Origin: Posidonia oceanica
Taxonomy: Eukaryota; Streptophyta; Magnoliopsida; Alismatales; Posidoniaceae
NCBI GenBank assembly: GCA_037176725.1
Contig: JAZBRS010000076.1
Span: 122,965,001-123,029,000, forward strand
Reading direction: 5' to 3'
Length of the DNA stretch: 64,000 nucleotides
Shown here: in pieces, positions 1 through 55,750 of the stretch
Layout of the letters: each line of letters begins with the position of its first letter
Numbering within the stretch: the stretch's first letter is position 1
Made by a program: the position numbers and the translations under genes
The notes under the pieces: generated by a model
What the model was told of the DNA's origin: nothing
The model's database searches: none
Seen by the model: only the letters and a program-made list of their open reading frames with translations

Positions 1-505
1 GACAGGACCGTAAACTGTCGCTCCAGTTGATAGGTCTGTAAACTATCCACCAGTTGGTAGGACTGTAAACTACCACGCGCAATGATGTTATACGGCTGAC
101 ATCCAGTAACTGTCCCTCGCAATGCCGTTTCCAGTTGATAGGACTGTAAACTATCCTCCAGTTGATAGGTCTGTAAACTATCCGCCGGTTGACAGGACCG
201 TAAACTGTCGTTCCAGATGATAGACTGTAAACTATCCGGCATTGCGTTATACGGCTGATATCCAGTAACTATCACTCATGGCTTGTGGTTTCCGGTTGAC
301 AGGACCGTAAACTGTCGCTCCAGTTGATAGGTCTGTAAACTATCCACCGGTTGACAGGACCGTAAACTGTCGTTAGGCTGATACTCCTAAACTATCACCC
401 ACAACCATGTTATACGGCTGATATCCAGTAACTATCACTCACAACTGCTCCGGTTGACAGGACCGTAAACTGTCACTCCCGGTTGATAGGACCGTAAACT
501 ATCCG
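1..505 (+). repeat. 3' UTR array of short covarying stem-loops
   Basis: This is a run of ~25-30-bp degenerate units, most with a 19-nt stem-loop of 5-bp arms and 9-nt loop. Examples: 1-19 has arms GACAG/CTGTC, 29-47 has GATAG/CTATC, and 56-74 has GGTAG/CTACC. A second class has 4-bp arms and loop TCCAGTAAC: GACA/TGTC at 98-114, and GATA/TATC at 257-273 and 420-436. Plant Tat-lineage elements are known for hypervariable 3' UTRs with tandem repeats (established). The paired changes in the arms are what I see here; any function is inference. Confidence 0.9.
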
Positions 506-1006
506 GACGATGAGCCCGTCACCTTATCATTTTTTTTCTCCTTTTCGGCGTAACCTTGTCCCAGGAAGACAAAGTCACGCACCCCCTTTCTGCGATAGGA
601 GAGTTGGCCTCTCTCCCCTCGCACTCTTTTCTTTCCTGCTGGCTTGTTCCCCAGACGGGGACAAGCTGCACCCTGTTTCCCCTCGCTTTGTCGCGTGAGT
701 TTGGCCTCCCTGCCAGATCCTCGCGCCACATCGCGTCCTTTTATCTTCTCTCTTGCATCATCTCCGCGCCTTCTCAGCTAGCATTGCATATTAATTTAAC
801 ATCATCAGCATCACTTGCGTGGCATCAGCATCTCTTCTAGTTGCACTAACTTTTGTACTAACTTTTGCATCGCATTAGCATGCATTGCATACTTAGCATC
901 ATTTATCTGCACCCAACACCTCGCATTGCGGCAATGGGCTACGACGTTCGGTGCATCCGCCGAATAAGTAACTCACGCCAATAGCAAATCTTTTGGCCCT
1001 CCGGTC
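506..1006 (+). other. non-coding 3' UTR tail of the retrotransposon
   Basis: No plausible gene lies here. The stretch is pyrimidine-rich around 510-700, then carries repeated short GCATTGCAT/GCATCA/TTAGCAT motifs at about 770-910. A related sequence in reverse orientation occupies 42966-43488 of the complete element, so this is a shared non-coding part of the family. Confidence 0.8.
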
Positions 1007-1090
1007 AAATGGGGTGTCTTGTCAACCCTGAGCAGCGGTCTCGGTCCCCTTGACCTCGCTCAGGGAGGGGCATCTGTTGACACCCCATTT
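1007..1090 (+). promoter_or_regulatory. polypurine tract and LTR edge within a large stem-loop
   Basis: The plus-strand priming site is the purine run AGGGAGGGG at 1062-1070, four bases before the LTR start at 1075. It is enclosed by two nested inverted repeats: AAATGGGGTGTC (1007-1018) with GACACCCCATTT (1079-1090), and CCCTGAGC (1026-1033) with GCTCAGGG (1058-1065). The outer arm pairs with the first bases of the LTR itself. The other element has the same layout with altered but still complementary arms (42882-42965). Confidence 0.8.
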
Positions 1091-1229
1091 CGACAAGGCT
1101 GAATCAGCGGATCTCTCTGGCGGCTAGGAAAAACCCAAAATCGCACATTCCTCTTCATCCTTCTTCCCAAATCAAACTCCAGCTCAAACCTCAGAGCCAA
1201 ACCTAGAACCACACCCATTTTCTAACCCC

Positions 1230-1306
1230 AAAACCTTATCCTGAAACCATCCCAAAACCTTATCCTGAAACCATCCCAAAACCTTACCCTGAAACCATCC
1301 CAAAAC
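1230..1306 (+). repeat. 24-bp tandem repeat in LTR, about 3 copies
   Basis: A 24-bp unit containing AAAACCTTATCCTGAAACC begins at 1230, 1254 and 1278 with a single difference (TATC to TACC) in the third. I did not see it expanded in the other LTR copies, so it is a local length variant. Confidence 0.85.
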
Positions 1307-3849
1307 CCAAGCCAAAACCAAACCCTAACCCTCCTTTCTACCCTTCATAACCAGCCAACTTGACCTAAGCCTTTACCCCTCTTCCCGAGCTCAAAACTTG
1401 ACCAAAATCCATAGGAAAATCCACCAACACCCACTCAACAAACCTACTCTAAAACCTAGAAATTTCTAAACCTGACCCATTCCCAAAAACCCTAGAAAAC
1501 CTAGGTGAATTTCCCCTTTTTCTACACCTTGAAACCCCTCCAAAACCTTCTTAGAATCAAACCAAAACCTTAGACCGAATACCTTAAGCCCTAGACTACC
1601 CACTCGCCAATTTTCACCCCATTCTGAGACCTCTAAGCCTTCCTTTCACCCAAATTATCCTTTTCTCTCTCCGGGATTATCATTTTCTCTCTCCTCTCTC
1701 TCTCCTGATTATCATCTCTCTTTTCATCCCTTTCTGATCCTTTTTCTGGTCTGGCTGTGGGCCCCCTCTGTGCTTCTATCCTTCCTCTATCCTATCCCTA
1801 TTTTTACTTTATTTTTAACACTTTTTCTGAATTTTTAAAAATCGTTTTCCTCCAACCTATCTTTTTCCTTTTATTCCCCTTTTTATTCCATTTTTTCCTC
1901 CTTCTCTTTTCCCTTTTCTCCCTTTTGCAAAAATCCACAAAAACCCATAAAAATCTGTAAAATCTCAAAACATAAAACAAACAAATCAGTACCCTAAGAA
2001 AAACAATTAAAAAATGTTAAACAAGCAATTAACAACTTAAACTTAACTTAAGCAAGCTAAAAAGAAAACTAAACATGCAAACTAAAAAATGCAAAACAAA
2101 TCAAAAGAAAACACTGAAAAATCAGGAAAAAAGCTAAAACAAAATCAAAACCCACCAAAGGTAAAAACCCATCAGAAGAATTAAAAAACAAACCCTAAAA
2201 AGGAGAATTAAAAATCAAACATTAAAACAAATAATTAAAAAAGGCAAAGGACTTAACCTAGTAAACATAAGAAAAACAAGTTAAAAGCTTAATTAAAAAA
2301 AAGGAAAAAAAACACATCTGAAAAGCTCAAAAACACCCTATCAAACCAGAAAAATCCAACTAAAAACTTCAAGAAAAATCCTTAAATAAAAATCAAGACA
2401 TAACTTAAAAGACTTAAGAAAGAAAAACCCTAAGAAGACTACAACTTTAAAATCTAAAACCAACCCTAAAATAATACAAAATAAATCCTGAAAAATCCTA
2501 ATCAATGCCCTAAGTGTCCAACAAAAGAAATAAAATTTTTAAAATAATTTAAAAGGGGATTAACAAACATTTAATCAAGTGAAAACCAATTAAAAACAAA
2601 ACCAAAACCCTAAAACCCTAATCAAGCCCAAAACACATTAATCAACTCAAAATAACCATTAAAAATCTTAATTAAAATCCTAACCTACAGCAAAACTCTT
2701 CTAATATTTTTACTTATTTTTAGTTTATTTTTACCTATTTTATTTCCCCATTCTACCCTCTCTTTCTTTCCTCCTTCTTTCTTTCTTTCTTTCTTTCTTT
2801 CCTTCCTTACTGGGCTCAATCCGGCCCATTTCTTCTTTTCTTTCTTTTTCATTCTTTTTCTCAGCCCGCAGCAGTCCGGCCCACGCTTCGTCTCCTCCTT
2901 CTTCTTCCTCGCGCTTCCACCGGATTTCCTTCCCGCGAGCTCGCTGCTACAGGTCTCCCTCCATTCCATTTGAATTCGAAGCTCCGTCCTTTCATCTACA
3001 GCAGCTCGCCGCCTCTCCCTCGTCTCAGCAGTTTTTCCGGAGTCGGACGACACCGGTCCTCTCTGCTGCAGTGGCCACCGATGGATTTCAAAAACTTCCA
3101 GCGCGCCAGCAGCCTCCCCTCCCCAGATAAAAGCTTCCCGTCCTTCCTTCAATCAGAGAGAGATAGACCTTCAATTGGCAGTGAGAGCGAGCAAGAGAGA
3201 GCAACGAGAGACCACCGGCAAACCAGAGACCAAAATCCGTTTTTTCTTTCCTTTCTGTGCGATCTTCCTTCTCCCCTGATCCTCTTCCAATTCCGGAGTG
3301 AAAAGAGAGAGGAAAGAGAGTGTTTGTGAGTTCTGGGCATCCCGGAGAGAAGCCCTCATCAGAGCCCGATCCCTCCATCCAGTCTTCTTCTTTTCTTCTC
3401 TGAAAATATCAGCAGAGCATCCTTCTTTCTTTTCCAATCCCCCAACACCACTCCAAGCCTCCACACTTCTCCCCTTTGCTCCCCCAAGATCACCCAAAAC
3501 CCAGCCATTTCCCAGCCTCATTCTCCGGCCATTCCACCCACTGAACCCACCTAAAACCACCCGGAAACACCCCGATCACCAGACCTGCAACCCAGCTCCT
3601 TTCTCTCACAATTCCCTCCACTCCAACTCACCACCCTCTCCCAAACTTTGTCCAGAGACTCACTGGACCTCCACCTTCTCAAAACACCAACCATCAAACC
3701 CAGCCACCCATCGTAGACCTTAAGCTCCACTACAAACACCTAGACCATCTTCAGCCCAGAAAACCGACCTAGCTCCAAGACCACTCCACAGCCTCCCAAA
3801 AAGCATTTCAACCACCCAGAACCACTCCCCGCACCTCCAGCAATCTCCC

Positions 3850-4577
3850 AGAGCGCTCCATCCAAGCCGACGAGCAGCAACGCCCCTCCCCGACCTCCGG
3901 CAGCAACCTGTGAACCCAAATCAGTCGAACCACCACCCGTGCTGCGAAGCTTCCGTCTGACTATCTGGGAAGCACCGGAGGAACATTCAGAAGCCGCTCC
4001 AACCTTCGCGAGCGACGGACGACGCCCGCTGTGACCGAACGACCTCCGCCGACCGGCTCTGGAACCACTGACGTCGGGGGAACGACTCAGACGCGGAAAG
4101 AGGTAAATTTTGCTTCCATTAGCTTCCTTTTCTTTTCCTCTCGCTTCCCTGCCCTTTAGACTAGCTTTTCCGGCCCTCCTGCTCCGTTTCCGCTCGCCGG
4201 TCCGGTCATCTTCTCCGGCAACGTCCTCCGGTCTTCGCGGCGCTCCAGCCAGCGGAACGCCATCCCGGTGATCCCCGAAGCTCCGCACGGACGTCAGGAG
4301 TCTCCTCCGGTCTTCAGAGCGCAGCTTCGCTGCGTCGAACGACCGGACCGAGCTTCAGACCTTCTGTAGAGCTCCGGCGAACGCTCCGGCACGTTCCAGA
4401 CAGCGTCGTCCTCCACCGATTGCCGCCCTGTCTCTGCCAACTCCGGGAGCACCTCCTCCGTTCGACTGCGCATCCTCAGCCCCCCCCTGTCGACGGCATG
4501 AGCGCTGGAAGTTTCGTGCTACAGTGCGCGTCGCCGTCGACGACCGGCACTGTGTCTTTATTTTTCAGTTTATATAG
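3850..4577 (+). promoter_or_regulatory. GC-rich block with TATA-like box (putative LTR promoter)
   Basis: A CpG-rich block at about 3850-4560 is followed by TATATAG at 4571-4577 and a long T-rich transcribed-looking region. The inner solo LTR keeps the TATATA motif on its minus strand near 29760; the other copies have degraded versions. If this is the promoter, U3 is ~3.5 kb and R plus U5 ~2.7 kb. No transcription start can be shown from sequence alone. Confidence 0.35.
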
Positions 4578-4619
4578 TTTTAGGGTGAATATTGCATATC
4601 TGTCTTAAGTTTTTTCATT

Positions 4620-5660
4620 TTTACATTCCAGTCCTTATTTCATTTATTCTGCTTAGTTTTTAATTAAATGCTTTGCTAAATTGCGCGATCTGTTTATGTT
4701 TTTCAATATTTGCAAGTAGATCCTTTTACTGTGCTGTGCTGCTTTAATTTTTTGTAATTTAGTCCTCCTGTTCTCAGTTTTTGCACCTAGGTCCTGCATT
4801 TAATCAGTTCATTTATTTACTCATATTTACCATACTATATTGCATCCTGGCCCCTTGCATGTTTTTATTTTTGCATTTAAGTCCCATGCACTGTTAGAAC
4901 TTAGGATTATTTTTTATTTTTCCATACTGCATTGCATTCCAAGTCCCTGCATTTTTCCATTTTTGCATTTAAGTCCATGCACTGTAGAAACCTAGGTTCT
5001 GATTTTTATTTTTGGTTGATGCATTGCATATTAGCCCCTCTACTTTATCATATTTGCAGTTAGGTCCATTTTAAATGGACAGTAACTGTGCTGCATGTAT
5101 TTTAACTTACTGCATTGCATTTTTAACCCCATATTTTCCAGAAATTGCACTGTGGTCCTGTCATTTAATTTTCAGAGCATATTTTCCATACTAAATTGCA
5201 TTTTCAACCCCTGCATGTTTTCAAAACCACACTTAGGTCCCTGCATGCTTTAAAAATCATGTGAAAAGACCATTTTGCCCCTAGGTTGCATTTTAGCCCC
5301 TATGCCTACCAAATTTCATACAGACCTTCCACTAGTACCCCCAGACTCCCCAGGACCTTGTTTTCTGGAAAATTTGCATCTTAGACCCTAGATTTTTTTA
5401 AAATTGCACTCTGACCCCCTTTTGGTTTCAAAATCTCTTTCAAAGCATACCTTCTTTTCAAAACACCTTTCTGAGCCTAGTTTTTTTTGCCAAATAGACC
5501 CCTGTCTTCCCCTGTTTTCAAAATCCTCTCCCGTGGAACCCTGTTTTCTGGGAAATTTGCATTTTTTAGCCCCTCTTCTTTTTCAAAATACTTTCTGAAA
5601 TCCTAGTTTTTTCCCAGCTTCTTTTCTTTACTTTTTCTTGCTTTTGCATGCATTCTGCAT
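4620..5660 (+). repeat. degenerate TTGCATTT/AGTCC-rich quasi-periodic stretch
   Basis: About 1 kb of loosely repeated phrases combines TTGCATTT, TAAGTCC or TAGGTCC, CTGCATG and TTTTCAAAA, with no exact period. The same stretch, reversed, is present in the other LTR copies (for example 24800-25790 and 38690-39700). It has the look of an ancient decayed tandem repeat within the transcribed part of the LTR. Confidence 0.6.
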
Positions 5661-6389
5661 CCATTTAGTCTTGCATTTCAGCATCCCCTTTGCACACACT
5701 AAGCACTCCTAGCTCCCTTTCACTTGGGAGGACCCTTATGCACATCCCTAGGACCTCCTGAACACCTAGATCTGTTCTTCTCCCCTGTTCTGGCCCTTCT
5801 GCCTTGGAGCTGCGATATCTTCCAATCCGGCCGTTGGATCTTCTCAAGTGAGCTGCCCAAGCGACCGCAGCGAAGCGCTCTTCAGCATAGACCAGACAGA
5901 TTTCAGATCAGGCTCCCGGACTTCCTGGTATGTCCTCCTGAACCCCTGCATTGCATTCATTTGCATGGCATTTGCACAGTTTTCCTTGTTTTCGCTTCCT
6001 GTCTCTTTGAACATGTAGAATAGGACTTCCCCTTTCTGCTTGTCTATTCAGATCCTCGTTTCGCGTTTCCCTGTGTGTTTCGTGTTGCGTTCTCCTTGGA
6101 TTTGCCACTTTATGTGACTTTCTTCCCCTTTTTCCACGATCCGATCGCATCGCGAGCTTTGGGCAGCATGCGAGACACACCGTGGAACGGTTTAGTGGGA
6201 AACAGCCGCAAAGAGGTGGTAATCCCTCCATTTGCCCTTTCTCCCCTCAGTAGGTCTTCACACCTGCTCTGAGTGGTCCTAAACAGCGTTTGTTCTTATA
6301 CACACGTTGTCTTGCCTCCCCTTTGACCCCTTTTAATCTCTTTCTGCATTCTCGCATTTGCATGGCTTTTTCGAGGTTTTTGCTTCGCT

Positions 6390-6700
6390 GTTTTGGCACC
6401 GTTTCGCGTGCCCGCCCTCGCTTTCGCTCCGTTTTGCGTGCCCATCTGTTTTCTTGTCTCATTTTGCGCACTGTCTTGCCTTCTCGTTTGTTTTGCGTGC
6501 CGGTTTTATTCTTTCGCCCCGTTTTGCGTACCATTCTGTTTTTTCGTCCTGTTTTGCGTACCTTCTTGCTCTCTTGTCTCGTTTTGCGCGCTGCCTTGTT
6601 TTCTGCTCGTTTTGCGTGACGATTTCGCTCTTTTGCATCGTTTTGCGTGCGTTGTTCGCTTCCCGCCTCGTTTTGCGTGTTTCGCGCCGTTTTCTCTTGC
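6390..6700 (+). repeat. ~30-bp minisatellite with GTTTTGCGTGCC core
   Basis: Units of roughly 28-36 bp share the core GTTTTGCGTGCC or GTTTTGCGCAC. Homologous arrays, reversed, lie at about 23737-24085, 27690-28040, 37745-37990 and 56395-56650. Unit number and spacing differ between LTR copies, so the array is length-variable. Confidence 0.8.
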
Positions 6701-6984
6701 ATGTCGATCCCATTGCATGGTTTTCACGCTGTTTTGTTTCCTCGCTTGCATTTGCATATAGGGCTGTGATGCTTACTGCCTGGAGTTCTCACGAGCTAGG
6801 TTTCGCCTGGTTCGGAACACGGACAGCGTAGCTGAGCACTTAGAGAGCACGTTTACTTCCCTGCCTTGCATTTTCCCACTTAGAGCACTCCTTGAGCATT
6901 CATTTAGGCATTCATAGGCACATAGGCATTCAATCCTGCATTTCCCTGCATATGCGAGCGTAAGCCTAGAAAGACCGATTTTCG

Positions 6985-7030
6985 GGCGTGTCGGGGGTGC
7001 CTAACACCTTCCCCGCACGTAACAGGAGTC
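6985..7030 (+). promoter_or_regulatory. conserved U5 block with GGTG...CACC stem
   Basis: All five LTR copies keep this block almost unchanged (reversed near 23455, 27368, 37429 and 56079). It contains GGTG(CCTAA)CACC followed by TTCCCCGCACGTAACAGGAGTCC-like sequence. From memory, many plant Tat-type LTRs have a similar GGTGCTAATACC-type block near the 3' end of the LTR, but I cannot check this. It may belong to R/U5 processing signals. Confidence 0.4.
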
Positions 7031-7210
7031 CTTGCCCTGTCTTCTGGCCCGCAATGACCATATTGCCCCTATCCTAGGCTAGAGTCATCACATTTGCATT
7101 CATTTGCATTTGTTTTCCTTTGCATTGCTTTGCTTCGCATTTCTTTCTTGGTTTTGCGTGTTAACTCATGCATTTCCCCCGGTTTTCCTTGTCTCCCGTT
7201 AATAGACATG

Positions 7211-7222
7211 GTGGCGACTCTG
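7211..7222 (+). other. primer-binding-site-like 12-mer inside U5
   Basis: GTGGCGACTCTG here is identical to the first 12 bases that follow the 5' LTR in the complete element (minus strand, 55750-55739). The copy sits about 125 bp before the LTR end in every LTR of the family, for example 55864-55875 on the minus strand. Confidence 0.75.
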
Positions 7223-7337
7223 ATTTGTCTTATCTTTTCCTTTTCTCCTCGATTTTAAGTGTTTTTCGAGTTGAGCCTCTTCCTCGGATCTCAATCGCCG
7301 CTAAATAGCGAGCCTGGTTCCGATCGGGATCGCTACA

Positions 7338-9640
7338 GCACCTATCAATCCTAGCGGTCCGGTCTTGACAAGGCTGGCACTTATCATTCCTGACCTCTTC
7401 TGGGTCTTGTTAGGGCTTGCACCAATCATTCCTGGTGGTCCGGTCATGATAAGGCTCGTACATATCATTCCTTACCTCTTTCGGGTCTTGTTGGGCTTGC
7501 ACCTATCATTCCTGGCGATCCGGTCTTGATAAGGCTCGTACTTATCATTCCTGACCTCTTCCTGGTCTTGTTAGGGCTTCCACCTATCATTCCTGGGGGT
7601 CCGGTCAAGATAAGGCTTGTACTTATCATTCCTGACCTCTTCCGGGTTTTGTTCGGACTTGCACCTATCATTCCTAGTGGTCCGGTCTTGATTAGGCTTG
7701 TACGTATCATTCTTGACCTCTTCCGGGACTTGTTAGGGCTTGTACCTTTCGTTCCTGGCGGTCCGGTCATCATAGGGCTTGTACTTATCATTCCGGAGCT
7801 CTTCCGGGTCTTGTTAGGGCATGAACCTATCATTCCTGGCGGTCTGGTCTTGATAAGGCTTGTACTTTTCATTCCATACCTTTTTCGGGGCTTGTTTGGG
7901 CTTGCACCAATCATTCCTAGCAGTCCGGTATTGATACGGCTTGTAGTTATCTTTCCAGACCTCTTCCAGGTCTTGTTAAGGCTTGCCCCTATCATTCTTG
8001 GCGGTCCAGTCACGATAAGGCTTGTACTTATCATTCCTGACCCCTTTCGGGTCTTGTTAGGGCTTGCACCTATCATTCCTGGCGGTCCGGTCATGATAAG
8101 GCTTGTACTTATAATTCCTGACCTCTTCCAGGTCTTGTTAGGGCTTGCACCTATCATTCCAAGCGGTCCGGTCATGAAAAGGCTTGTACTTATCATTCCT
8201 GACATCTTCCGGGTCATGTTTGGGCTTGCACCTATCATTCCTAGCGGTCCTGTCTTCATATGGCTGGTACTTATCATTCCTGACCTCTTCCGGGTATAGT
8301 TAGAGCCTGCACCTCTCATTCTGGGCGGTCCGGTCTTGATAAGGTTTCTACTAATCATTCCCGACCTCTTCTGGGTCTTGTTGGGGCTTGCACCTATCAG
8401 TCCTGGCAGTCCGGTCTTCATAAGGCATGTACTTATCATTCCAGACCTCTTACGAGTCTTGTTAGGGCTTGCACCAATCATTCCTGGTGGTCTGGTCTTG
8501 ATAAGGCTTGTACTAATCATTCCTGACCACTTCTGGATCTTGTTAGGGCTTGCACCTATCATTCCTGGCGGTCCAGTCTTGATAAGGCTCGTACCTATCA
8601 TTCCTGACCTCTTCCAGGCCTTGTTAGGGCTTGCACCAGTCATTCCGGGCGGTCCGTTCTTGATAAGGCTCGTACTTATCATTCCTGACCTCTTCCGGGT
8701 CTTGTTGGGGCTTGAACCACTCATTCCTGGCGGTCCGGTCATGATAAGGCTGGCACTTATCGTTCCTGACCTCTTCTGGGTCTTGTTAGGGCTTGCACCA
8801 ATCAGTCCTGGTGGTTCGGTCATGGTATGGCACGTACATTTCATTCCTGACCTCTTCCAGGTCATGTTAGGGCTTGCACCTATCATTCCTAGCGGTTCGG
8901 TCTTGATAAGGCACGTACTAATCATTCCTGACCTCTTCTGGGTTTTGTTAGGGCTTGCACCTATCATTCCAGGCGGTTCGGTCATGATAAGCTTGAACTT
9001 ATCATTCCTGACGTCTTCCGGGTCTTGTTAGGGCTTGCACCTATCATTCTTGGTGGTTCGGTCTTGATAAGGCTTGTACATATCATTCTTGACCTCTACC
9101 GCGTTGTGTTAGGGCTTGCACCTATCAATCCTAGCGGTCCGATCTTGACAAGGCTGGCACTTAACATTCCTGACCTCTTCTGGGTCTTGTTAGGGCTTGC
9201 ACCAATCATTCCTGGTGGTCCAGTCATGATAAGGCTCGTACATATCATTCCTTACCTCTTTCGGGCCTTGTTGGGCTTGCACCTATCATTCCTGGCGATC
9301 CGGTCTTGATAAGGCTCGTACTTATCATTCCTGACCTCTTCCTGGTCTTGTTAGGGCTTCCACCTATCCTTCCTGGGGGTCCGGTCATGATAAGGCTTGT
9401 ACTTACCATTCCTGACCTCTTCCGGGTTTTGTTAGGACTTGCACCTATCATTCCTGGCGGTCCGGACTTGATTAGGCTTGTACGTATCATTCCTGACCTC
9501 TTCCGGGACTTGTTAGGGCTTGCACCTTTCGTTCCTGGCGGTCCGGTCGTCATAGGGCTTGTACTTATCATTCCGGACCTCTTCCGGGTCTTGTTAGGGC
9601 AAGCACCTATCATTCCGAGTGGTCCGGTCTTGACAAGGCT
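7338..9640. repeat. local ~1.78-kb duplication within the satellite
   Basis: The block starting CACCTATCAATCCTAGCGG at about 7339 recurs at about 9119 with the same order of private variants, including a shared 2-bp deletion (TTGTTGGGCTTG at 7488 and 9268). The offset is 1780 bp, about 22 units. Similarity can be followed for roughly 500-600 bp. Confidence 0.75.
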
Positions 9641-12600
9641 TGTACTAATCATTCCTGACCTCTTTCAAGTCATGTCGGAGCTTGCACCTATCATTCCTGG
9701 CGGTCAAATATTGATAAGGCTTGAACTTGTCAATACTGACCTCTTCCTGGTCTTGTTTGGGCTTGCAGCTATCATTCCAGGTGGGCCTATCTTGATAAGG
9801 CATGTACTTATCATTCATGACCACTTCCAGGTCTTGTAAGGGCTTGCACCTTTCATTCCTAGTGGTCCGGTCATCATAGGGCTTGTACTTATCATTTCAG
9901 ACCTCTTCGGGTCTTGTTAGGGATTGCATCTATCATTCCTAGCAGTCCGGTCTTGATAAGGCTTCTACTTATCATTCCTGACCTCTTCGGGTCTTGTAAA
10001 GGCTTGCACCAATCATTCCAAGCGGTTCGGTCATGATAAGGCTTGTACTTATCATTTTAGACCTCTTCCGGGTCTTGGTAAGGCTTGCACCTATCATTCC
10101 TGGCGGTCCGGTCTTGATAAGGCACGTACTTATCTATCCTGACCTCTTCCGGGTCTTTTTAGGGCAAGCGGCTATCATTCCTGCGGTCCGGTCTTGATAT
10201 GGCTTGTACTTATCATTCATGACCACTTCCGGGTCTTGTTGGGGCTTGCACCTATCATTCCTGGCGGTCCGGTCTTGGAAAGGCACGTACTTATCATTCC
10301 AAACCTCTTCCGGGTCTTGTTAGGGCATGCACCTATCATTCCTGGCGGTCCGGTCTTCATAAGGCTTGTACTAATCATTCCGGACCTCTTTCGGGGCTTC
10401 TTACAGCTTGCACCTTTCATTCCTGGTGGTCAGGTCATGATAAGGCTCGTACCTACCATTCCTGACCTCTTCCAGGTCTTGTTAGGGCTTGCACCAATCA
10501 TTCCTGGCAGTCCATTCTTGATCAAGCTTGTACTTATCATTCCTGACCTCTTCCGGGTCTTGTTAGGGCTTGAACCAATCATTCCTGGCGGTCCGGTCAT
10601 GACAAGGCTCGTTCATATCATTCCTGACCTCTTCCGGGTCTTGTTAGGGCTGGCACCTATCATTCCTGGCGGTCCGGTCTTGATAAGGCTCGTTCTTATC
10701 ATTACTGACCTTTTCCTGGTCTAGTTAGGGCTTCCACCAATCATTCTTGGGGGTCCTGTCTTGATTAGGCATGTACGTATCATTCCTGACCGCTTACGTG
10801 TTATGATAGGGCTTGCACCTATCTGTCCTGGCGGTCCGGTATTGATAAGGCTTGTACTTATTATTCCTGACCTCTTCCGGGTCTTGGTTTGGCTCGAACC
10901 AATCATTCCTGGCGGTCCGGTCATGATAAGGCTCGAACATATCATTCCTGACCTCTTTCGGGTCATGTTAGGGGTTGCACATATCATTCCAGGCGGTCCG
11001 GTCTTGATAAGGCTTGTATTTATCATTCCTAACCTCTTCCAGGTCTTGTTAGTGCTTGCACCGATCGTTCCTGGCGGTCCGGTCTTGATGAGGCTTGTAC
11101 TTATCATTCCGGACCTCTTCTGGGACCAGTTAGGGCCTGCACCTATCATTCGTGGCGGTCTGGTCCTGATACGGCTTGTACTCATCATTCCTGTCCTCTT
11201 CTGGGTCTTGTTAGGGCTTGCACCGATCATTCCACGCGGTCCGGTCTTGATAAGGCTTGTACTTATCGTTCCTGACCTCTTCCGGGTCTTGTTAGGGCTT
11301 GCACCTATCATTCCTGGCGGTCTGGTCTTGATAAGGCTTGTACATATCCTTCCTGACCTCTTTCTGGTCTTGTTAGGGCTTGCACCTATTATTCCTGTCA
11401 GTCGTGTCTTGATAAGGCTTGTACGTATAATTCCTGACCTCCTCTGGATCTTTTTCGGGCTTGCACCAATCATTCCTGTCGGTCCGGTCTTGATACGGCT
11501 TCTACTTATCGTTCCTGACCTCTTCCGGGGCTTGTTTTGGCTAGCACCAATCATTCCTGGCTGTCCGGTCTTGATAAGGCATGTACTTATCATTCCAGAC
11601 CTCTTCCAGGTCTTGTTAGGGCTTGCACCTATCATTCCTAGTAGTCCGGTCAAGATAAGGCTTGTACTTATCATTCTAGACCCATTTCGGGTCTTGTTAG
11701 GGCTTGCACCTATCATTCCTGGTGGTCCGGTCTTGATAAGCTTGTACTTATAATTCCTGACCTCTTCCGGGACTCGTTAGGGCTTGCACCTATCGTTGCG
11801 GGCAGTCCGGTCAAGAAAAGGCATGTACTTATCATTGCTCGCATCTACCGGGTCTTGTTAGGGCTTGCAACTTTCATTCCTGGCGGTCAGGTCATGTTAG
11901 GGCTTGTACTTATCATTCCGGTCCTCTTCCGGGTCTTGTTAGGGCTTGCACCTATCATTGCTAGCGGTCCGGTCTTGGTAAGGCTTCTACTGATCATTCC
12001 TGACCACTTCGGGTCTTGTTAGGGCTTGCACCAATCATTCCTAGCGGTCCGGTCTCGATAAGGCTTGTACTTATCATTCCTGACCTCTTCCAGGTCTTGT
12101 TAGGGCTCGCACCTATAATTTCTGGCAATCCGGTCATGATCAGGCTTGTACTTATCGTTCCTGACCTCTTCTAGGTCCTGTTAGGGCTAGCACCTATCAT
12201 TCCTAGCAGTCTGATCTTGATAAGGCTTGTACCTATCATTCCTGACCTCTTTGGGTCTAGTTAGGGCTTGCACCTATCATTCCTGGCGATTCGGTCTTGA
12301 TAAGGCATGTACTTATCGTTCCTGACATCTTCGGGTCTTGTTAGGGCTTGCACCTATCATTCCTGGCGGTCAGGTCTTCATAAGGCTTGTACTAATTATT
12401 CCTGACCTCTTCCCGGTCTTGTTAGGGCTTGCACCTATCATTCCTGGCGGTCTGGTCTTGATAAGGCTCGTACCTATCGTTCCTGACCTCTTCCGAGTCT
12501 TGTTAGGGCTTGCACCTATCATTCCTGGCAGTCCGGTCTTGATAAGGCACGTACATATCAATCCTGACCTCTTCTAGGTCTTTTTAGGGCTTGCGCTTTT

Positions 12601-12660
12601 CATTCCTGGCGGTCCGGTCTTGATAAGGCATGTACTTATCCTTCTTGACCTCTTCCGTGT

Positions 12661-15600
12661 CTTGTTAGGGCTTGCACCTATCATTCTTGGCGGTCCGGTC
12701 CTCGAAAGGCTTGTACTTATCATTCATGACCTCTTCCAGGTTATGTTGGGGCTTGCACCTATCATTCCGGGCGGTCCGATCTTGATAAGGCTTATACTTA
12801 TCGTTCCTGACCTCTTCCGGGACTTGTTAGGGCTTGCACCTATCATTCCTGGCGGTCCGGTCTTGATAAGGCTCGTACCTATCATTCCTGACCTCTTCCA
12901 GGTCTTGTTAGGGCTTGCACCAATCTGTCCTGGCGGTCCATTCTTGATAAGGCTTGTACTTATCAGTCCTAACCTCTTCCGGGTCATGTCAGGGCTTGAA
13001 CCAATCGTTCCTGGCGGTCCGGTCATGATAAGGCTCGTACATATCATTCTTAACCTCTTTCGGGTCTTGATAGGGCTTGCACCTATCATTCCAGGCGGTC
13101 CGGTCTTGATATGCCTCGTACTTATCATTCCTGACCTCTTCCTGGTCTTGTTAGGGAATCCACCTATCAATCTTGGGGTCCGGTCTTGAAAAGGCTTGTA
13201 CTTATCATTCCTGTCCTCTTCCGGGTTTTATTAGGGCATGCACCTATCATTCCTTGTCGTACGGTCTTGATTAGGCTTGTACGTATCATTCCTGACCTCT
13301 TCCAGGTCTTGTTAGGGCTTGCACCTATCATTCCAGGCGGTCCGGTCTTAATAAGGCATGTACTTATCATTCCCGACCTCTTCCTGGTCTTGTTAGGGCT
13401 TGCACCGATCTTTCCTGGTGGTCCGGTCTTGATAAGGCGTGTACTTATCATTCCTGACCTCTTCCTGGTCTTGTTAGGGCTTGCACATATCATTCTCAGC
13501 GGTCCGGTCTTAATTAGGCATGTACTTATCATTACCGACCTCTTCCTGGTCTTGTTTGGGCTTGCACCGATCATTCCTTGTGGTCCGGTCTTGATAAGGC
13601 ATGTTCATATCATTTCTGACCTCTTCCTTGTCTTGTCAGAGCTTGCACCTATCATTCCTGGCAGTCAAGTATTGATAAGGCTTGTACTTATCAATCCTGA
13701 CCTCTTCCTAGTCTAGTTAGGGCTTGCACCTATCATTCTCGGCGGTCCTGTCTTGATAAGGCACGTACTTATCATTCCTGACCTCTTTCGGGTCTTGTTA
13801 GGGCTTACACCTATCACACCAGGCGGTCCGGTCTTGATAGGGCTTGTACTTATCATTCCTGTCCCCTTCTGGGTCTTGTTAGGGCATGCTCCTATCATTC
13901 CTAGCAGTCTGGTCTTGATAAGGCTTCTACTTATCATTTCGAACCTTGTTAGGGCTTGCACCAATCAATCCTAGTGGTTCGGTGTTGATAAGGCTTGTAC
14001 TTATCATTCCAGACCTCTTCCAGGTCGTGTTTTGGCTCGTACCTATCCTTCCTGGCGGTCCGATCTTGATCAGGCATGTACTTATCGTTCCTGACCTCTT
14101 CCGAGTCCTGTTAGGGCTAGCACCAATCATTCCTAGCGGTCTGGTCAAGATAAGGCATGTACCTATCATTCCTGACCTCTTCGGGTATTGTTAGGGCTTG
14201 CACCTATCATTCCCGGCGGTCCGGTCTTGATAAGGCTTGTATTTATCATTCCTAACATCTACCGGGTCATGTTAGGGCTTGCACCTATCATTCCTGGCGG
14301 TCTGGTCTTCATAAGGCTTGTTCTAATAATTCCTGACCTCTTCCAGGTCTTGTTAGGGCATGCACCTATCATTCCTGGCGGTCCGGTCTTAATAAGGCTC
14401 GTACCTATCATTCTTGACCTCTTCCGGGTCATGTTAGGGCTTGCTCCTGTCATTCCAGGCAGTCCGGTCGTGATTGGGCATGTACATATCAATCCAGACA
14501 TCTTCCTGGCCTTTTTAAGGCTTGCGCCTATCATTCCGGGGGGGCCGGTCTTGAAAAGGCTTGTACTTATCCTTCATGACCACTTCTGTGTCTTGTTAGG
14601 GCTTGCACCTATCTTTCTTGGCAGTCCGGTCTTGATAAGGCATGTACTTATCATTCCAGACCACTTCCGAGTTTTGTTAGGGCATGCACCTATCATTCCT
14701 TGCTGTCCGGTCATGATTAGGCTTGTACGTATCATTCCTGACCTCTTCCGGGTCATGTTAGGGCTTGCACCTATCATTCCTGGCGGTCCGGTCTTGATAT
14801 GGCGTGTCCTTATCATTCCCGACTGCTTCCTGGACTTGTTAGGGCTTGCACCTATCATTCTAGGCAGTCTGGTCTTGATAAGACTTGTACTTATCATTCC
14901 AGACCTCTTCTGGGTCTTGTTAGGGCTTGCACCAATCATTCCTGGCAGTCAGGTATTGATAATGCATGTACTTATCACTCCTGACCTCTTCCTGGTCTTG
15001 TTAGGACTTGCACCTATCATTCCTGGCGGTCCGGTCTTGATAACGCAGGCACTTATCATTCCGGACTGCTTCCGGGTCATGTTAGGGCTTACACCAATCA
15101 TTCCTGGCGGTCCGGTCATGATAAGGCTCGTACTTATCATTCCTTACCTCTTCCGGGTCTTGTTTGGACTTGCACCAATCATTCCTAGCGGTCCGGTCTT
15201 GATAAGGCTCGTACTTATCATTCCTGACATCTTCCTGGTCTTGTTAGGGCTTCCACCAATCATTCTTGGGTGTCCGGTCATGATATGGCTTGTACTTATC
15301 ATTCCTGACCACTTCCGGGTTTTGTTGGGGCTTGCACCTACCATTCCTGGCGGTCCAGTCTTGATTAGGCTTGTACGTATCATTCCTGACCTCTTCCAGG
15401 TCTTGTTAGGGCCTGCACCTATCATTCCTGGCGGTCCGGTCATGATAAGGCTTGTACTTATCGTTCCTAACCTCTTTCCTGTCTTGTTAGGGCTTGCACC
15501 AATCATTCCTAGTGGTCCGGTCATGATAAAGCTTGTACTTGTCATTCCTGACCACTTCCGGGTCTTGTCAGAGCTTGCACCTATCGTTCCTGGCGGTCAG

Positions 15601-18314
15601 GTATTGATAAGGCTTGTACTTATCATTCCTGACCTCTTCTTGGTCTAGTTAGGGCTTACACCTATCATTCCTAGTGGTCCTGTCTTGATAAGGCATGTAC
15701 TTATCATTCCTGACCTCTTTCGGGACTAGTTAGGGCTTGCACCTTTCATTCCTGGCGGTCCGGTCATCATAGGGCTTGTACTTATCGTTCCGAACCTCTT
15801 CCAGGTCATGTTAGGGCTTGCACCTCTCATTCGTAGCGGTCCAGTCTTGATAAGGCTTCTACATATCATTCCTGACCTCTTCGTGTCTTGTTAGGGCTTG
15901 CACCAATCATTCCAAGCGGTTCGGTCTTGAAAATGCTTGTACTTATCAGTCCTGACTTCTTCTGGGTCTTGTTAGGGCTTGCACCTATCATTCCTGGCGG
16001 TCCGATCTTGATAAGGCATGTACTTTACAATCCTGACCTCTTCCAGGTCTTTTTAGGGCATACGGCTATCATTCCTGGCGGTCCGGTCTGGATAAGGCTT
16101 GTACTTATCATTCATTACCACTACTGGGTCTTGTTGTGGCTTGCACCTATCATTCCTGGCGGTCCGGTCTTCATAAGGCTTGTACTTATCATTCCAGACC
16201 TCTTCCGTGTCTTGGTAGGGCTTGCACCTAACATTGCTGGCGGTACGGTCACGATAAGGCTTGAACAAATCGTTCCAGACCTCTTCCGGATCTTGATAGG
16301 GCTTGCACTTATCATTCCTGGTGGTCCGGTCCAGATAAGGCTCGTACCTATCATTCCTGACCTCTTCCAGGTCATGTTAGGGCTTGCACCTGTCATTCCT
16401 GGCGGTCCATTCTTGATCAGGCTTCTACTTATCATTCCGGACCTCTTCCGGGTCTTGTTAGGGCTTGAACCATTCATTCCTGGCGGTCCGGTCCTGATAC
16501 GACTTGTACATATCATTCCTGACCTCTTCAGGGTGTTGTTGGGGCGGCACCAATCATTCCCAGCGGTCCGGTCTTGATAAGGCTCATTCTTATCTTTCCT
16601 GACCTCTTCCTGGTCTTGTTAGGGCTTCCACCTATCATTCCTGGGGGTCCGGTCATGATAAGGCTTGTACTAATCATTCCTGACCTCTTATGGGTTATGT
16701 TAGGGCTTGCACCGGTCATTCCTGGCGGTCTGGTCTTGATAAGGCTTGTACGTATCATTCCTGACCTCTTCCGTGTCTTGTGTGGGCTTGAACCAATCCG
16801 TCCTGGTGGTCCGGTCATGATAAGGCTCAAACATATCATTCCTGACCCCTTTCGGGTCTTGTTAGGGCTTGCACCTATCATTGCAAGCGGTCCGATCTTG
16901 ATTAGGCTCGTACTAATCATTCCTGACGTCAACCGGGTCTTGTTAGGGCTTGCACCTATCATTCCTGGCGGTGTGGTCTTCATATGGCTTGTACTAATCG
17001 TTCTGGACCTCTTTCGGGCTTCTTAGGGCTTGCACCTATCACTCCTGGCGGTCCGGTCTTGATAAGGCTCGTACCTACCATTCCTGACCACTTCCAGGTC
17101 TTGTTAGGGCTTGCACCAATCATTCCTGGCGGACCATTCTTGATCAGGCTAGTACTTATCATTCCTGACCTCTTCCGGGTCTTGTTAGGGCTTGAACCAA
17201 TCATTCCAGGCGGTCCGATCGTGATAAGGCATGTACTTATCAATCCTGACCACTTCTGGGTCTTTTTAGGGCTTACGGCTATCATTCCTGGCGGTCCGGT
17301 CTTGATAAGGCTTGTACATATCATTCATGACCACTTTCGAGTCTTGTTTGGGCTTGCACCGATCATTCTTGCCGGTTCGGTCTGGGAAAGGCATGAACAT
17401 ATTATTCCAGACCTCTTCCGGGTCTTGTTAGGGCTTGGACCTATCATTCCAGGCGGTCTGGTCTTGATAGGACTTGTACTTATCATTCCAGACCTCTTCC
17501 GTGTCTTGTTAGGGCTTGCACCTATCATTCCAGGCAGTCAGGTATTGATAAGGCTTGTACTTATCATTCCTGAACCCTTCCTGGTCTTGTTAGGACTTGC
17601 ACCTATCATTCCTAGCGGTCCGGTCTTGATAAGGCAGGCACTTATCATTCCTGACTTCTTCCGGGTCTTTTTAGGGCTTGCACCAATCATTCCTAGCGGT
17701 CCGGTCATGATAAGGCTCGTACATATCATTCCTGACCTCTACTTGGTCTTGTTAGGGCTTCCACCTATCATTCTTCGGAGTCCGGTCATGATATGGCTTG
17801 TACTTATCATTCCTGACCTCTTCCGGGTTTTGTTAGGGCTTGCACCTACCATTCCCGGCGGTCCGGTCTTGATTAGGCTTGCACGTATCATTCCTGACCT
17901 CTTCCGGGTCTTGTTAGGGCTTGCACCTATCATTGCTGGCGGTCCGGTCTTGATAAGGCTTGTACTTATCATTCCCGACCTCCTCCTTGTCTTGTTAGGG
18001 TTTGCACCAATCATTCCTGGTGGTTCGGTCATGATAAGGCTTGTACTTGTCATTCCTGACCACTTCCGGGTCTTGTCAGAGCTTGCACCTATCTTTCCTA
18101 ACGGTCAGGTACAGATATGGCTTCTACTTATCAATCCTGACCTCTTCCTGTTCTAGTTAGGGCTTGCACCTATCCTTCCTGGTGGTCCTGTCTTGATATG
18201 GCATGTACTTATCATTCCTGACCTCTTCCTGGTCTAGTTAGGGCTTGCACCTTTCATTCCTGGCGGTCCGGTCATCATAGGGCTTGTACTTATCATTCCG
18301 GACCTCTTCGGGTC
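12661..18314. repeat. higher-order repeat, copy 1 (~5.65 kb, ~70 units)
   Basis: The order of variant units here recurs 5653-5654 bp downstream. Anchors: TCCTCGAAAGGC at 12709 and 18353; the variant TTGTTGTGGC at 16131 and 21784; frame breaks at 13186/18839 and 15888/21541. After about 16200 the offset falls to 5573, which matches loss of one ~81-bp unit in copy 2. Confidence 0.85.
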
Positions 18315-21300
18315 ATGTTAGGGCTTGCACCTATCATTCTTGGCGGTTCGATCCTCGAAAGGCCTGTACTTATCATTCATGACCTCTTCCGGGTTATGTT
18401 TGGGCTTGTACCTATCATTCCAGGCGGTCCGATCTTGATAAGGCTTATACTTATCGTTCCAGACCTCTTCCGGGACTTGTTAGGGCTTGCACCTATCATT
18501 CCTAGCGGTCCGGTCTTGATAAGGCTCGTACCTATCATTCCTGACCTCTTCCAGGTCTTGTTAGGGCTTGCACCAATCTGTCCTGGCGGTCCATTCTTGA
18601 TAAGGCTTGTACTTATCAGTCCTGACCTCTTCCGAGTCATGTCAGGGCTTGAACCAATCATTCCTGGCGGTCTGGTCATGATAAGGCTTGTACAAATCAT
18701 TCTTGACCTCTTCCGGGTCTTGTTAGGGCTTGCACCTATCATTCCAGGTGGTCTGGTCTTGATATGGCTCGTACTTATCATTCCTGACCTCTTCCTGGTC
18801 TTGTTAGGGCATCCACCTATCAATCTTGGGGTCCGGTCTTGAAAAGGCTTGTACTTATCATTCCTGTCCTCTTTCGGGTTTTATTAGGGCATGCACCTTT
18901 CATTCCTTGCGGCCCGGTCTTGATTAGGCTTGTACGTATCATTCTTGACCACTTTCGGGTCTTGTTAGGGCTTACACCTATCATTCCAGGTGGTCCGGTC
19001 TTAATAAGGCAAGTACTTATCATTCCCGACCTCTTCCTGGTCTTGTTAGGGCTTGCACCAATCATTCCTGGTGGTCCGGTCTTGATAAGGCGTGTACTTA
19101 TCATTCCTGACCTCTTCCTGGTCTTGTAACGGCTTGCACCTATCATTCTCGGTGGTCCGGTCTTAATTAGGCATGTACTTATCATTACCGACCTCTTCCT
19201 GGTCTTGTTAGGGCTTGCACCGATCATTCCTTGTGGTCCAGTCTTGATAAGGCGTGTACTTATCATTCCTGACCTCTTCCTTGTCTTGTCAGAGCTTGCA
19301 CCTATCATTCCTGGCAGTCAAGTATTGATAAGGCTTGTACTTATCATTCCTGACCTCTTCCTGGTCTAGTTAGTGCTTGCACCTATCATTCTCGGCGGTC
19401 CTGCCTTGATAAGGCACGTACTTATCATTCCTGACCTCTTTCGGGTCTTGTTAGGGCTTGCACCTATCACACCAGGCGGTCCGGTCTTGATAGGGCTTGT
19501 ACTTATCATTCCTGTCCCCATCTGGGTCTTGTTAGGGCATGCTCCTATCATTCCTAGCGGTCCGGTCTTGATAAGGCTTCCACTTATCATTTCAAACCTT
19601 GTTAGGGCTTGCACCAATCAATCCTAGCGGTTCGGTCTTGTTAAGGCTTGTACTTATCATTCCTGACCTCTTCCAGGTCTTGCTTTGGCTAGTACCTATC
19701 GTTCCTGGCGGTCCGATCTTGATCAGGCATGTACTTATCGTTCCTGACCTCTTCCGGGTCCTGTTAGGGCTAGCACCAATCAATCCTAGCGGTCTAGTCA
19801 AGATAAGGCTTGTACCTATCATTCTCGACCTCTTTGGGTATAGTTAGGGCTTGCACCTATCATTCCTGGCGGTCCGGTCATGATAAGGCTTGTACTTATC
19901 GTTCCTGACATCTGCCGGGTCTTGTTAGGGCTTGCACCTATCATTCCTGGCGGTCTGGTCATCATAAGGCTTGTACTAACTATTCCTGACCTCTTCCAGG
20001 TCTTGTTAGGGCTTGCACCTATCATTCCTAGCGGTCCGGTCTTGATAAGGCTCGTACCTATCATTCCTGACCTCTTCCGGGTCATGTTAGGGCCTGCTCC
20101 TGTCATTGCAGGCAGTCCGGTCGTGATTGGGCATGTACATATCAATCCAGACATCTTCCTGGCCTTTTTAAGGCTTGCGCCTATCATTCCGGGGGGGCCG
20201 GTCTTGAAAAGGCTTGTACTTATCCTTCATGACCACTTCCGTGTCTTGTTAGGGCTTGCACCTATCATTCTTGGCGGTCCGGTCTTGATAGGGCATGTAC
20301 TTATCATTCCAGACCACTTCCGAGTTTTGTTAGGGCATACACCTATCATTCCTTGCTGTCCGGTCATGATTAGGCTTGTACGTATCATTCTTGACCTCTT
20401 CCGGGTCTTGTTAGGGCTTGCACCAATCATTCCCGGCGGTCCGGTCTTGATAAGGCGTGTCCTTATCATTCCCGACCGCTTCCTGGACTTGTTAAGGCTT
20501 GCACCTATCATTCCAGGCAGTCTGGTCTTGATAAGACTTGTACTTATCATTCCAGACCTCTTTTGGGTCATGTTAGGGCTTGCACCAATCACTCCTGGCA
20601 GTCAGGTATTGATAATGCATGTACTTATCACTCCTGACCTCTTCCTGGTCTTGTTAGGACTTGCACCTATCATTCCTGGCGGTCCGGTCTTGATAACGCA
20701 GGCACTTACCATTCCGGACTGCTTCCGAGTCATGTTAGGGCTTACACCAATCATTCCTGGCGGTCCGGTCATGATAAGGCTCGTACTTATCATTCCTTAC
20801 CTCTTCCGGGTCTTGTTTGGACTTGCACCTATCATTCCTGGCGGTCCGATCTTGATAAGGCTCGTACTTATCATTCCTGACCTCTTCCTGGTCTTGTTAG
20901 GGCTTCCACCAATCATTCTTGGGTGTCCGGTCATGATATGGCTTGTACTTATCATTCCTGACCACTTCCGGGTTTTGTTGGGGCTTGCACCTACCATTCC
21001 TGGCGGTCCGGTCTTGATTAGGCTTGTACGTATCATTCCTGACCTCTTCCAGGTCTTGTTAGGTCTAGCACCTATCATTCCTAGCAGTCCGGTCATGATA
21101 AGGCTTGTACTTATCGTTCCCGACCTCTTCCCTGTCTTGTTAGGGCTTGCACCTATCATTCCTAGTGGTCCGGTCATGATAAGGCTTGTACTTGTCATTC
21201 CTGACCACTTCCGGGTCTTGTCAGAGCTTGCACCTATCGTTCCTGGCGGTCAAGTATTGATAAGGCTTGTACTTATCATTCCTGACCTCATCTTGGTCTA

Positions 21301-42897: not shown

Positions 42898-42965
42898 GAT
42901 GCCCCTCCCTGAGCAAGGTCAAGTGGAGCGAGGCCGCTGCTCAGGGTTGACAAGACACCCCATCT
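42882..42965 (-). promoter_or_regulatory. polypurine tract and LTR edge within a large stem-loop
   Basis: On the minus strand the purine run AGGGAGGGGC precedes the 3' LTR start at 42897. The arms on the plus strand are AGATGGGGTGTC (42882-42893) with GACACCCCATCT (42954-42965), and CCCTGAGC (42907-42914) with GCTCAGGG (42939-42946). The layout is the same as at 1007-1090. Confidence 0.8.
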
Positions 42966-43488
42966 AACCGGCGGGAGCAGCGGGTTGCTATGGGCGTGAG
43001 CTACTTATTCGGCGGATGCACTGAAGGTCGTAGCCCGTTGCCGCAATGCAAGATGCTAAGTGCAGATGGATGATGCTAAGTGCGATGCATGCTAGTGCAA
43101 ATGCAATGCAAGAAGTTAGCATAAAAGTTAGTGCAGCTAGAATAGATGCTGATGCTGTGCAAGTGATGGTGATGATGCTAAAGTATTATGCAGTGCTAGC
43201 TGGGGAAGTGCTAAGATGATGCAAGAGGAATGATAAAAAGGCGCGATGTGGTGCGAGGATCTGGCGGGGAGGCCAGACTTGCGCGACAAAGCGAGGAAAA
43301 ACAGAGTGCAGCTTGTCCCTGCCCGGGGAACAAGCTAGCAGAAAAGAAAGAAAGAAAAGAAAGAAAAAAAAAAGGGGTGTGAGGGGAGAGAGGCCAACTC
43401 TCCTATCGCAAAAGGGGTTTGCGTGACTTTGCCTTCCTAGGACAAGGTCACGCCAAAAAAGGTGATAAGGTGACGGGCTTTTCGTCCG
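42966..43488 (-). other. non-coding 3' UTR tail
   Basis: This is the homologue of 506-1006. It has GCATGC/TGATGCTAAGTGC-rich repeats at 43040-43200, then a purine-rich stretch (about 43330-43390). No gene is visible. Confidence 0.75.
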
Positions 43489-44335: not shown

Positions 44336-44440
44336 CCTGAGAGTGCTTGATTGTTTGATAGTTTCGGATATCAGCCTAGAATGTGATTGATTGTTTGATA
44401 GTTTCGGATATTAGCCTAGAATGTGATTGATTGTTTGATA
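44336..44440 (-). repeat. ~40-bp repeat with GATAGTTTCGGATATC hairpins
   Basis: Two to three copies of a ~40-bp unit combine GATAGTTTCGGATATCAGCC with TGTGATTGATTGTTT. It forms the border between the 27-bp and 35-bp arrays and shares the GATA...TATC arms with the former. Confidence 0.75.
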
Positions 44441-45080: not shown

Positions 45081-45200
45081 CATCCTATGACACCAGGAAT
45101 ATCATAGGGGAAAGAGGGGAAGAATGATACCAAGGGGCGATCAAAAGATGCGTCCTTGGCATCGAAAGCAGAGGGTGATGACAAGATTGTCGTGCTTGTC
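45081..45200 (-). other. three further stem-loops between repeat arrays
   Basis: Inverted repeats seen: CCTATGA (45084-45090) with TCATAGG (45102-45108); CCAAGG with CCTTGG (about 45130-45158); and GACAAG (45180-45185) with CTTGTC (45195-45200). The last is a compensated version of GATAAG/CTTATC. Confidence 0.65.
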
Positions 45201-55731: not shown

Positions 55732-55749
55732 TCCCCAGCAGAGTCGCCA
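55732..55749 (-). promoter_or_regulatory. primer-binding site, tRNA-Arg type
   Basis: One base after the 5' LTR the minus strand reads TGGCGACTCTGCTGGGGA. TGG pairs with the tRNA CCA end, and GCGACTC fits the 3' acceptor arm of a tRNA-Arg. Ogre-type elements are known to prime with tRNA-Arg. The exact tRNA cannot be confirmed without the genome's tRNA set. Confidence 0.75.
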
Positions 55750-55750
55750 C

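Follow-up and report, generated by a model that had tools for sequence, protein, structure and literature searches.

Background

The tandem repeats in the 3' untranslated region (UTR) of Tat/Ogre retrotransposons are hypervariable, as Macas reportedly described in 2009. The Tat/Ogre lineage is defined by an extra RNase H (aRH) between RH and INT, and the PBS of Ogre elements is of the tRNA-Arg type. Such 3' UTR repeats have been attributed to errors of replication and regarded as sources from which satellites arise (PMC7004042), and an extra ORF with a plant mobile domain (PMD) is present in 57% of Ogre elements (PMC6317226). In Ty1, Gag leaves footprints on the stems of an RNA pseudoknot, for which it shows a preference (PMC8396678).

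A 64,000-nt stretch of the Posidonia oceanica genome (the window, in whose coordinates positions are given) opens with a repeat array in a retrotransposon 3' UTR. Letters of these repeats tend to change two at a time, partner with partner, as though each repeat folded into a two-stem knot, and the array may be a structural signal in the RNA of its element.

The host retrotransposon and its genome

The first-pass annotation placed the array in a retrotransposon 3' UTR, and the downstream sequence bears this out: the units stop ~560 bp upstream of a polypurine tract (PPT) that is followed directly by an LTR (PPT/LTR start, 1062-1075). The window contains part of one element, a complete relative and the satellite that surrounds them:

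1..505, plus strand: array of 16 structured units, the 3' part of an array that starts ~330 bp upstream of the window
1062..1074, plus strand: PPT AGGGAGGGGCATC, preceding the 3' LTR
1075..7337, plus strand: 3' LTR (TGTTGACACC...CGCTACA) of the plus-strand element
7338..23125, plus strand: 81-bp satellite, ~195 copies, with a GATAAG..CTTATC-like dyad in each unit
37101..61544, minus strand: complete 24.4-kb LTR retrotransposon with the 5-bp TSD GTATC, in the 81-bp satellite
43486..44262, minus strand: homologous array, in the 3' UTR of the complete element on this strand
44292..45564, minus strand: further tandem repeats in the same 3' UTR, with unit lengths of 26, 40, 35 and 83 bp, some of the repeats containing GATAAG/CTTATC units
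45874..47214, minus strand: extra ORF of 446 aa, with plant mobile domain PF10536 (8e-20) and DUF7745 (7.8e-15)
48539..53293, minus strand: coding pieces, namely integrase core (48539-50023, below the Pfam cut-off), protease with G-patch (50081-51445) and gag (52046-53293)

The plus-strand element begins ~21.4 kb before the window and ends at 7337; GCACC adjoins both ends, and like the minus-strand element it sits inside the 81-bp satellite. The two LTRs of the minus-strand element (37101-42897 and 55751-61544) are 5.8 kb long and 98.55% identical by BLAST. After the LTR and one intervening base, TGGCGACTCTGCTGGGGA occupies the PBS position. The ORFs scanned in this element gave no match to RT or RH, and a search with the PMD protein returned nine proteins. 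The G-patch domain of the protease ORF piece corresponds to PF01585 (1.6e-07). Judged on its PMD extra ORF, its several types of 3' UTR tandem repeat and its great length (24.4 kb with 5.8-kb LTRs), the sequence of the element fits the Tat/Ogre lineage of Ty3/gypsy.

Genome-wide counts refer to the assembly that contains the window (2.96 Gb in 80 contigs). A 25-mer spanning the PPT/LTR junction occurs 25,909 times, its reversed control not at all, and the window array is present, counting the window copy, at least 40 times at 99-100% identity. At G000:C22:16572213-16618215, three near-identical copies of the array are spaced ~22.7 kb apart, perhaps as a tandem array of elements.

One of the arrays sampled (L037:1-1251) belongs to a different Ty3/gypsy element, which carries a Tf2-1-like SH3 domain, shares the PPT/LTR 25-mer and is presumably a chromovirus. 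It begins ~170 bp past the end of the integrase-tail reading frame, and its units follow the plan described below (GGG-CT-GATA-G-CCC-TAAC-TATC). The 3' ends look as if they had been exchanged between lineages.

Two predicted interleaved stems in the units

All 16 hairpin units at 1-505 have perfectly complementary arms: 12 are of class 1, three of class 2 and one of class 3. Class-1 arms are 5 bp long (GATAG/CTATC, GACAG/CTGTC or GGTAG/CTACC), class-2 units of this stretch have GATA/TATC or GACA/TGTC flanking TCCAGTAAC, and the sole class-3 unit of 1-505 reads GATA-CTCCTAAAC-TATC. The three arm-pair types named in the first-pass annotation are thus present, but GACAG/CTGTC and GGTAG/CTACC are each one base pair, not two, away from GATAG/CTATC. 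Perfect 5-bp stems with 8-9-nt loops number 17 per 505 nt, compared with a mean of 1.05 and a maximum of five in 500 first-order Markov sequences, and the window contains 23 matches to GATAGN{7,10}CTATC, where 0.13 would be expected. Across array A (the window array including its upstream part) and array B (43486-44262), this stem, S2, is fully paired in 33 of 36 class-1 units; the remaining three have one G.T, one A.C and one other mismatch.

A plain stem-loop, as first proposed, describes S2 correctly but is incomplete, since a second, interleaved stem, S1, covaries about equally. In the first arrays compared, the spacer 5' of S2 is complementary to the S2 loop (CCAG with CTG, CCGG with CCG). 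The stem halves thus follow in the interleaved order S1a, S2a, S1b, S2b, which predicts the topology of an H-type pseudoknot. In order, the plan has a 3-bp S1 core, a first loop that is mostly 2 nt long (3 nt in part of classes 3 and 4), an S2 with 4-6 bp, a second loop of mostly 1-2 nt and, between S1b and S2b, an A-rich last loop of 4 nt. Class 1 is exemplified by CAG-TT-GATAG-GA-CTG-TAAA-CTATC, and other classes by AGG-CT-GATA-T-CCT-AAAC-TATC, TGG-CT-GATGA-T-CCA-AAAC-TCATC and CGG-CC-GATAAG-T-CCG-ATAT-CTTATC. Individual units illustrate the plan and its variants:

480..503, plus strand: example class-1 unit, with S1a CGG (480-482), L1 TT, S2a GATAG (485-489), L2 GA, S1b CCG (492-494), L3 TAAA and S2b CTATC (499-503)
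56..74, plus strand: GGTAG/CTACC-armed unit, whose counterpart at 43968-43947 has GATAG/CTATC and the identical loop start GACTG
98..114, plus strand: class-2 unit GACA-TCCAGTAAC-TGTC, with a possible S1 TACGG/CC(A)GTA that contains a bulged A
380..396, plus strand: class-3 unit, with S1 TTAGG/CCTAA around GATA and S2 GATA/TATC
504..528, plus strand: terminal class-5 unit CGG-AC-GATGAG-C-CCG-TCAC-CTTATC, with one G.U in S2

The letters of S1 vary by class (CAG/CTG, CGG/CCG, AGG/CCT, TGG/CCA) and are mostly still complementary. In class 2, a putative S1 pairs only with a bulged A, and class 3 has a recurrent mismatch, AGG/CCG, in 15 of 329 units. The best single hairpin predicted by ViennaRNA is S1 with extra pairs in three of four class-1 units and S2 in the fourth; energies, which refer to single hairpins only, are small (-0.1 to -5.2 kcal/mol in seven units covering all classes). 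Folded as one strand, the window array is not unusually stable as RNA (z = -1.5) and moderately more stable than expected as DNA (z = -2.85). Reverse-oriented class-1 units are absent from 20 arrays, 19 of which have class-1 units. Rfam covariance models gave no match to window 1-1100 up to E = 1, and one unit pattern searched in viral contigs and in genome contigs found none.

The order of the halves bears on the molecule in which the units would act. Interleaved dyads suit a single strand and are awkward for a double-stranded site, and a structured signal in genomic RNA is therefore favoured. The units could instead be double-stranded DNA dyads that form an array of protein-binding sites, for instance for the element's own PMD protein, in the manner of VANC on VANDAL elements. 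This reading can draw on the PMD ORF, on the precedent of VANC binding to tandem VANDAL motifs (PMC5735166), on mismatches that show no strand asymmetry and on the similar GATAAG dyad of the satellite into which the elements insert. It appears very improbable to us: dyad sites should nest, whereas the interleaving of S1 and S2 puts half-sites in opposite order, and no PMD ORF lies between the integrase-tail frame and the array in L037, an interval of ~170 bp. Similar units following the end of an integrase in that element argue, if lightly, against a role tied to the PMD protein.

Covariation within units

Coupling between stem halves was assessed in 46 arrays, made up of six discovery arrays from the 200 kb around the window (A, B and four others) and 40 later ones, which are ~1.25-kb stretches upstream of PPT/LTR junctions on contig C1 (40 of 100 junction sites listed). 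Class-1 units are present in 43 of the 46 arrays overall and in 37 of the 40 from C1. The S1 stems of classes 1 and 3, and then the class-2, class-4 (GATGA) and class-5 versions, were fixed before the C1 arrays were sampled; how units were registered, classes delimited and rows filtered was decided after inspection, so that these arrays are not a clean blind test. The C1 ranking sets retained 483 of 503 class-1 units (those with a 2-nt L1 and a 2-nt L2), 275 of 397 class-3 units (L3 AAAC; class-2-like and other units dropped) and 54 of 65 class-4 units (those with S1a ending in CG dropped as mis-registered).

The paired arm changes first noticed in the window recur on this larger scale, with arms coupled beyond column independence in the 46 arrays and in the 40 C1 arrays alone. 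In the C1 arrays, APC-corrected covariation scores place S1p2, S2p3 and S2p2 first to third among 276 column pairs in class 1 (91 distinct haplotypes). In class 3 (22 haplotypes, 153 column pairs) the outer S1 pair leads, followed by S2p2, and in class 4 (20 haplotypes, 190 column pairs) S2p4 leads, followed by the outer S1 pair. If columns were exchangeable, the chance of such leading ranks would be 1.6e-5, 0.0018 and 0.0016, respectively; these values are guides that should not be multiplied, since the classes are related to each other and common descent makes their columns non-exchangeable. Of the eight pairs in class 1, five rank low, from 30th to 227th of 276.

Pair counts show how the letters are exchanged. 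Among 597 class-1 units from 43 of the 46 arrays, S1p2 is G-C in 326, A-T in 233, A.C in 21, G.T in 14 and another combination in three (Watson-Crick fraction.936, expected.509), while S2p3 is T-A in 534, C-G in 60 and another combination in three (.995, expected.815). The outer S1 pair of class 3 is A-T in 256 units, T-A in 42, C-G in two and different in 29 (329 units, class-2-like rows removed), and class-4 S1 is TGG/CCA in 33, CGG/CCG in 11 and different in 10 of 54 C1 units. When the named structure is scored over the 91 class-1 haplotypes from C1, 92.0% of cells are paired, covariation is.171 and 24 cells are doubly changed, each value reached in none of 500 shuffles (which give.127 covariation and 8.1 doubly changed cells); partners slid along the unit reach at most.088. 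For S1 alone, covariation is.300, compared with.220 in shuffles (0/500) and at most.125 for slid partners.

S1 could be an accident of unit ancestry, with S2 the only real stem of what would then be ordinary stem-loops. S2 is indeed kept more strictly, with 94.7% of cells paired against 87.5% for S1 (91 later-sampled class-1 haplotypes), and a candidate fourth class-1 S1 pair is not kept (T-A 352, T.T 162, T.C 55). In the C1 arrays, however, an S1 pair is among the top two in all three classes ranked, and S1 letters differ among classes with complementarity mostly retained. Nor is S1 a by-product of S2, because both S1 types occur among the 534 units with T-A in S2 (S1p2 G-C 264, A-T 232, with 38 exceptions: A.C 21, G.T 14, other 3); the last class-1 unit in arrays A and B likewise combines S1 G-C with S2 T-A. 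That S2 alone is real is, on balance, improbable.

The coupling is a property of the single unit. In the 29 arrays that have both S1 types, the S1p2 halves match within their own unit in 230 of 234 cases, against 139 of 234 when the half is taken from the next unit, and the figures for S2p3 are 232 and 142 of 234. In both stems, the two halves match and vary together inside a unit, and a half from a neighbouring unit is no substitute.

Shared ancestry and possible template switching

The reading of paired changes as a sign of selection is only partly supported, in that most single pairs lack significance under a tree-based null (an R-scape-like custom script, 60 simulations, all 46 arrays). 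In class 1, the top three pairs have E values of 0.8, 1.7 and 4.1, and class 3 has 0.35. Only class-2 S2p3 falls below E 0.05 (0 in 60 simulations), in an alignment partly contaminated by class 3; the class-2 tree-null alignment and the first class-3 set were cross-contaminated, and class 3 was cleaned later. Few change events per pair fall on the tree. Exchange between two unit types, which had been raised as a cause that might suffice by itself, holds in part: some of the covariation reflects such exchange, because GACAG/CTGTC is largely one spread lineage. All 60 class-1 units with GACAG/CTGTC also have S1 G-C, and parsimony gives one and three events at the two columns.

The two measures least affected by relatedness are unexceptional. 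Among the 91 class-1 haplotypes, pairs changed on both sides number five against 3.3 in shuffles (53 of 500 as high), and further pair types number 12 against 11.3 (201 of 500 as high); for S1 alone, the same measures give 3 against 2.5 (277 of 500) and 6 against 5.5 (278 of 500). G.U is not favoured over A.C at S1p2 genome-wide (8,076 and 10,257, beside 179,439 A-T units), nor among class-1 haplotypes, where the two number 5 and 5 (haplotypes in at least three arrays) or 23 and 39 (in a single array). This balance neither supports nor excludes RNA, since dead copies would collect their private mutations symmetrically.

While an element is replicated or reverse transcribed, a template switch inside the hairpin could copy one arm onto the other and so produce a paired change in a single step, after which exchange and ancestry would spread the resulting types with no function needed. 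Such switching has been proposed to create and maintain RNA hairpins (PMC8794818). It would account for the few events per pair and for the pairs that lack tree-based significance, and the unexceeded relatedness-robust measures and unenriched G.U intermediates agree with it. Such copying would however have to correct both a 3-bp and a 5-bp stem that interleave. The second L2 position, moreover, varies freely (A, T, C and G) in haplotypes common to at least three arrays while both stems are mostly kept. We regard template switching as a possible but rather unlikely source of the pattern.

The 81-bp satellite provides a control. Repeats free of constraint were predicted to lose arm coupling, and the satellite dyad behaves in this way, showing no covariation in 250 units: Watson-Crick fractions are.588 at pair 5 and.852 at pair 1, compared with.621 and.839 for independent columns. 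The control covered the GATAAG..CTTATC dyad of the satellite, which is S2-like, only. With 6-bp arms and a 7-nt loop, this dyad shows none of the arm homogenisation that template switching would bring about, yet the satellite is not reverse transcribed, and switching specific to reverse transcription would escape this comparison.

Insertion sites in the 81-bp satellite

The satellite unit holds two 19-nt dyads that resemble the 3' UTR units (GATAAGGCTTGTACTTATC and GTTAGGGCTTGCACCTATC). The satellite may itself derive from a retrotransposon 3' UTR.

Elements enter the 81-bp satellite at preferred positions. Genome-wide, 26 of 44 exact junctions between an LTR end and a satellite anchor share one gap length of 31 possible, mostly with the TSD ATAAG in the GATAAG arm; the remaining gap lengths are 0 (4 junctions), 6 (1), 20 (4), 21 (2) and 30 (7). 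The anchor was an exact 15-mer and the range of gaps spans only part of the satellite unit, and copies arising from satellite amplification may contribute to these counts. Near the window (7338-23125, 34900-37100, 61546-64000 and flanks), five of seven insertions lie fully within satellite dyads, against an expected 30/81, a difference that by itself lacks significance. At 23126-34899, an LTR block inserted in the satellite has ATAAG on both sides and is apparently nested in LTR sequence.

A tentative model

The reading we favour, with slightly less than even confidence, is that the units are copies of one compact H-type-pseudoknot element, kept in the 3' UTR by selection. That selection would act on the genomic RNA or its single-stranded cDNA, and unequal strand transfer during reverse transcription would multiply the array. 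By analogy with Ty1, the array might further be a multivalent platform to which a protein of the element binds, Gag being the likeliest, in packaging or reverse transcription, which is the less secure part of the proposal. A broader combination is doubtful as a whole, namely that a superfamily keeps 20-30 pseudoknots per element with drifting matched stems, shares them with another Ty3/gypsy lineage of the same genome and uses them as a repeated RNA tag of identity or packaging, while related elements enter a satellite at preferred positions in its similar GATAAG dyad.

If the units are RNA structures under selection, the persistence of the arrays has a reason, and plant LTR retrotransposons would gain a candidate cis-acting RNA signal. 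It would also become possible to distinguish selection from template-switch mutation as the origin of compensatory change, a question that has been raised for RNA genes (PMC8794818). The ~26,000 junctions in one genome allow a very large covariation test.

Comparison with known systems

Among the best-ranked papers on pseudoknots, palindromes or hairpins in such elements, from a literature in which few subscription journals were represented, titles and abstract openings mention no structured 3' UTR repeat arrays. In tobamoviruses, the upstream pseudoknot domain of the 3' UTR consists of tandem short pseudoknots. These resemble the present units in being tandem, short and located in a 3' UTR, and differ in belonging to an RNA virus and in having few copies.

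The 5' pseudoknot of Ty1 is functional, lies in the RNA of an LTR retrotransposon and is bound by Gag; it is single, long-range and at the 5' end, compared with tens of putative local ones in a 3' UTR here (PMC8396678). Predicted secondary structures in maize transposable elements are likewise structures of plant elements, tied there to small RNAs, but are reportedly miRNA-like (PMC10760457). The palindromic motifs of Sirevirus LTRs are high-copy, dyad-symmetric motifs in non-coding retrotransposon sequence; they differ in belonging to Ty1/copia, in lying in LTRs, in having a CGG-CCG core and in being discussed as regulatory boxes, and are not known to form interleaved stems (PMC2829016). The target repeats of VANC in VANDAL elements are also fast-evolving tandem motifs in non-coding parts of plant transposons, but consist of a short DNA motif for which protein binding has been shown, and the main text of that study contains no words in palindrom- or inverted- (PMC5735166).

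The 3' UTR repeats of Tat/Ogre elements share the position between the last ORF and the 3' LTR, the family-specific tandem repeats and the link to satellites (PMC7004042). In contrast to the present account, the main text of that paper does not use the words hairpin, palindrome, secondary structure or stem, and its Discussion does not treat covariation within units (PMC7004042). Within the portion of the literature represented here, Tat/Ogre 3' UTR tandem repeats and their satellite link are known, and what this locus would add is units that are probably structured, with two putative stems.
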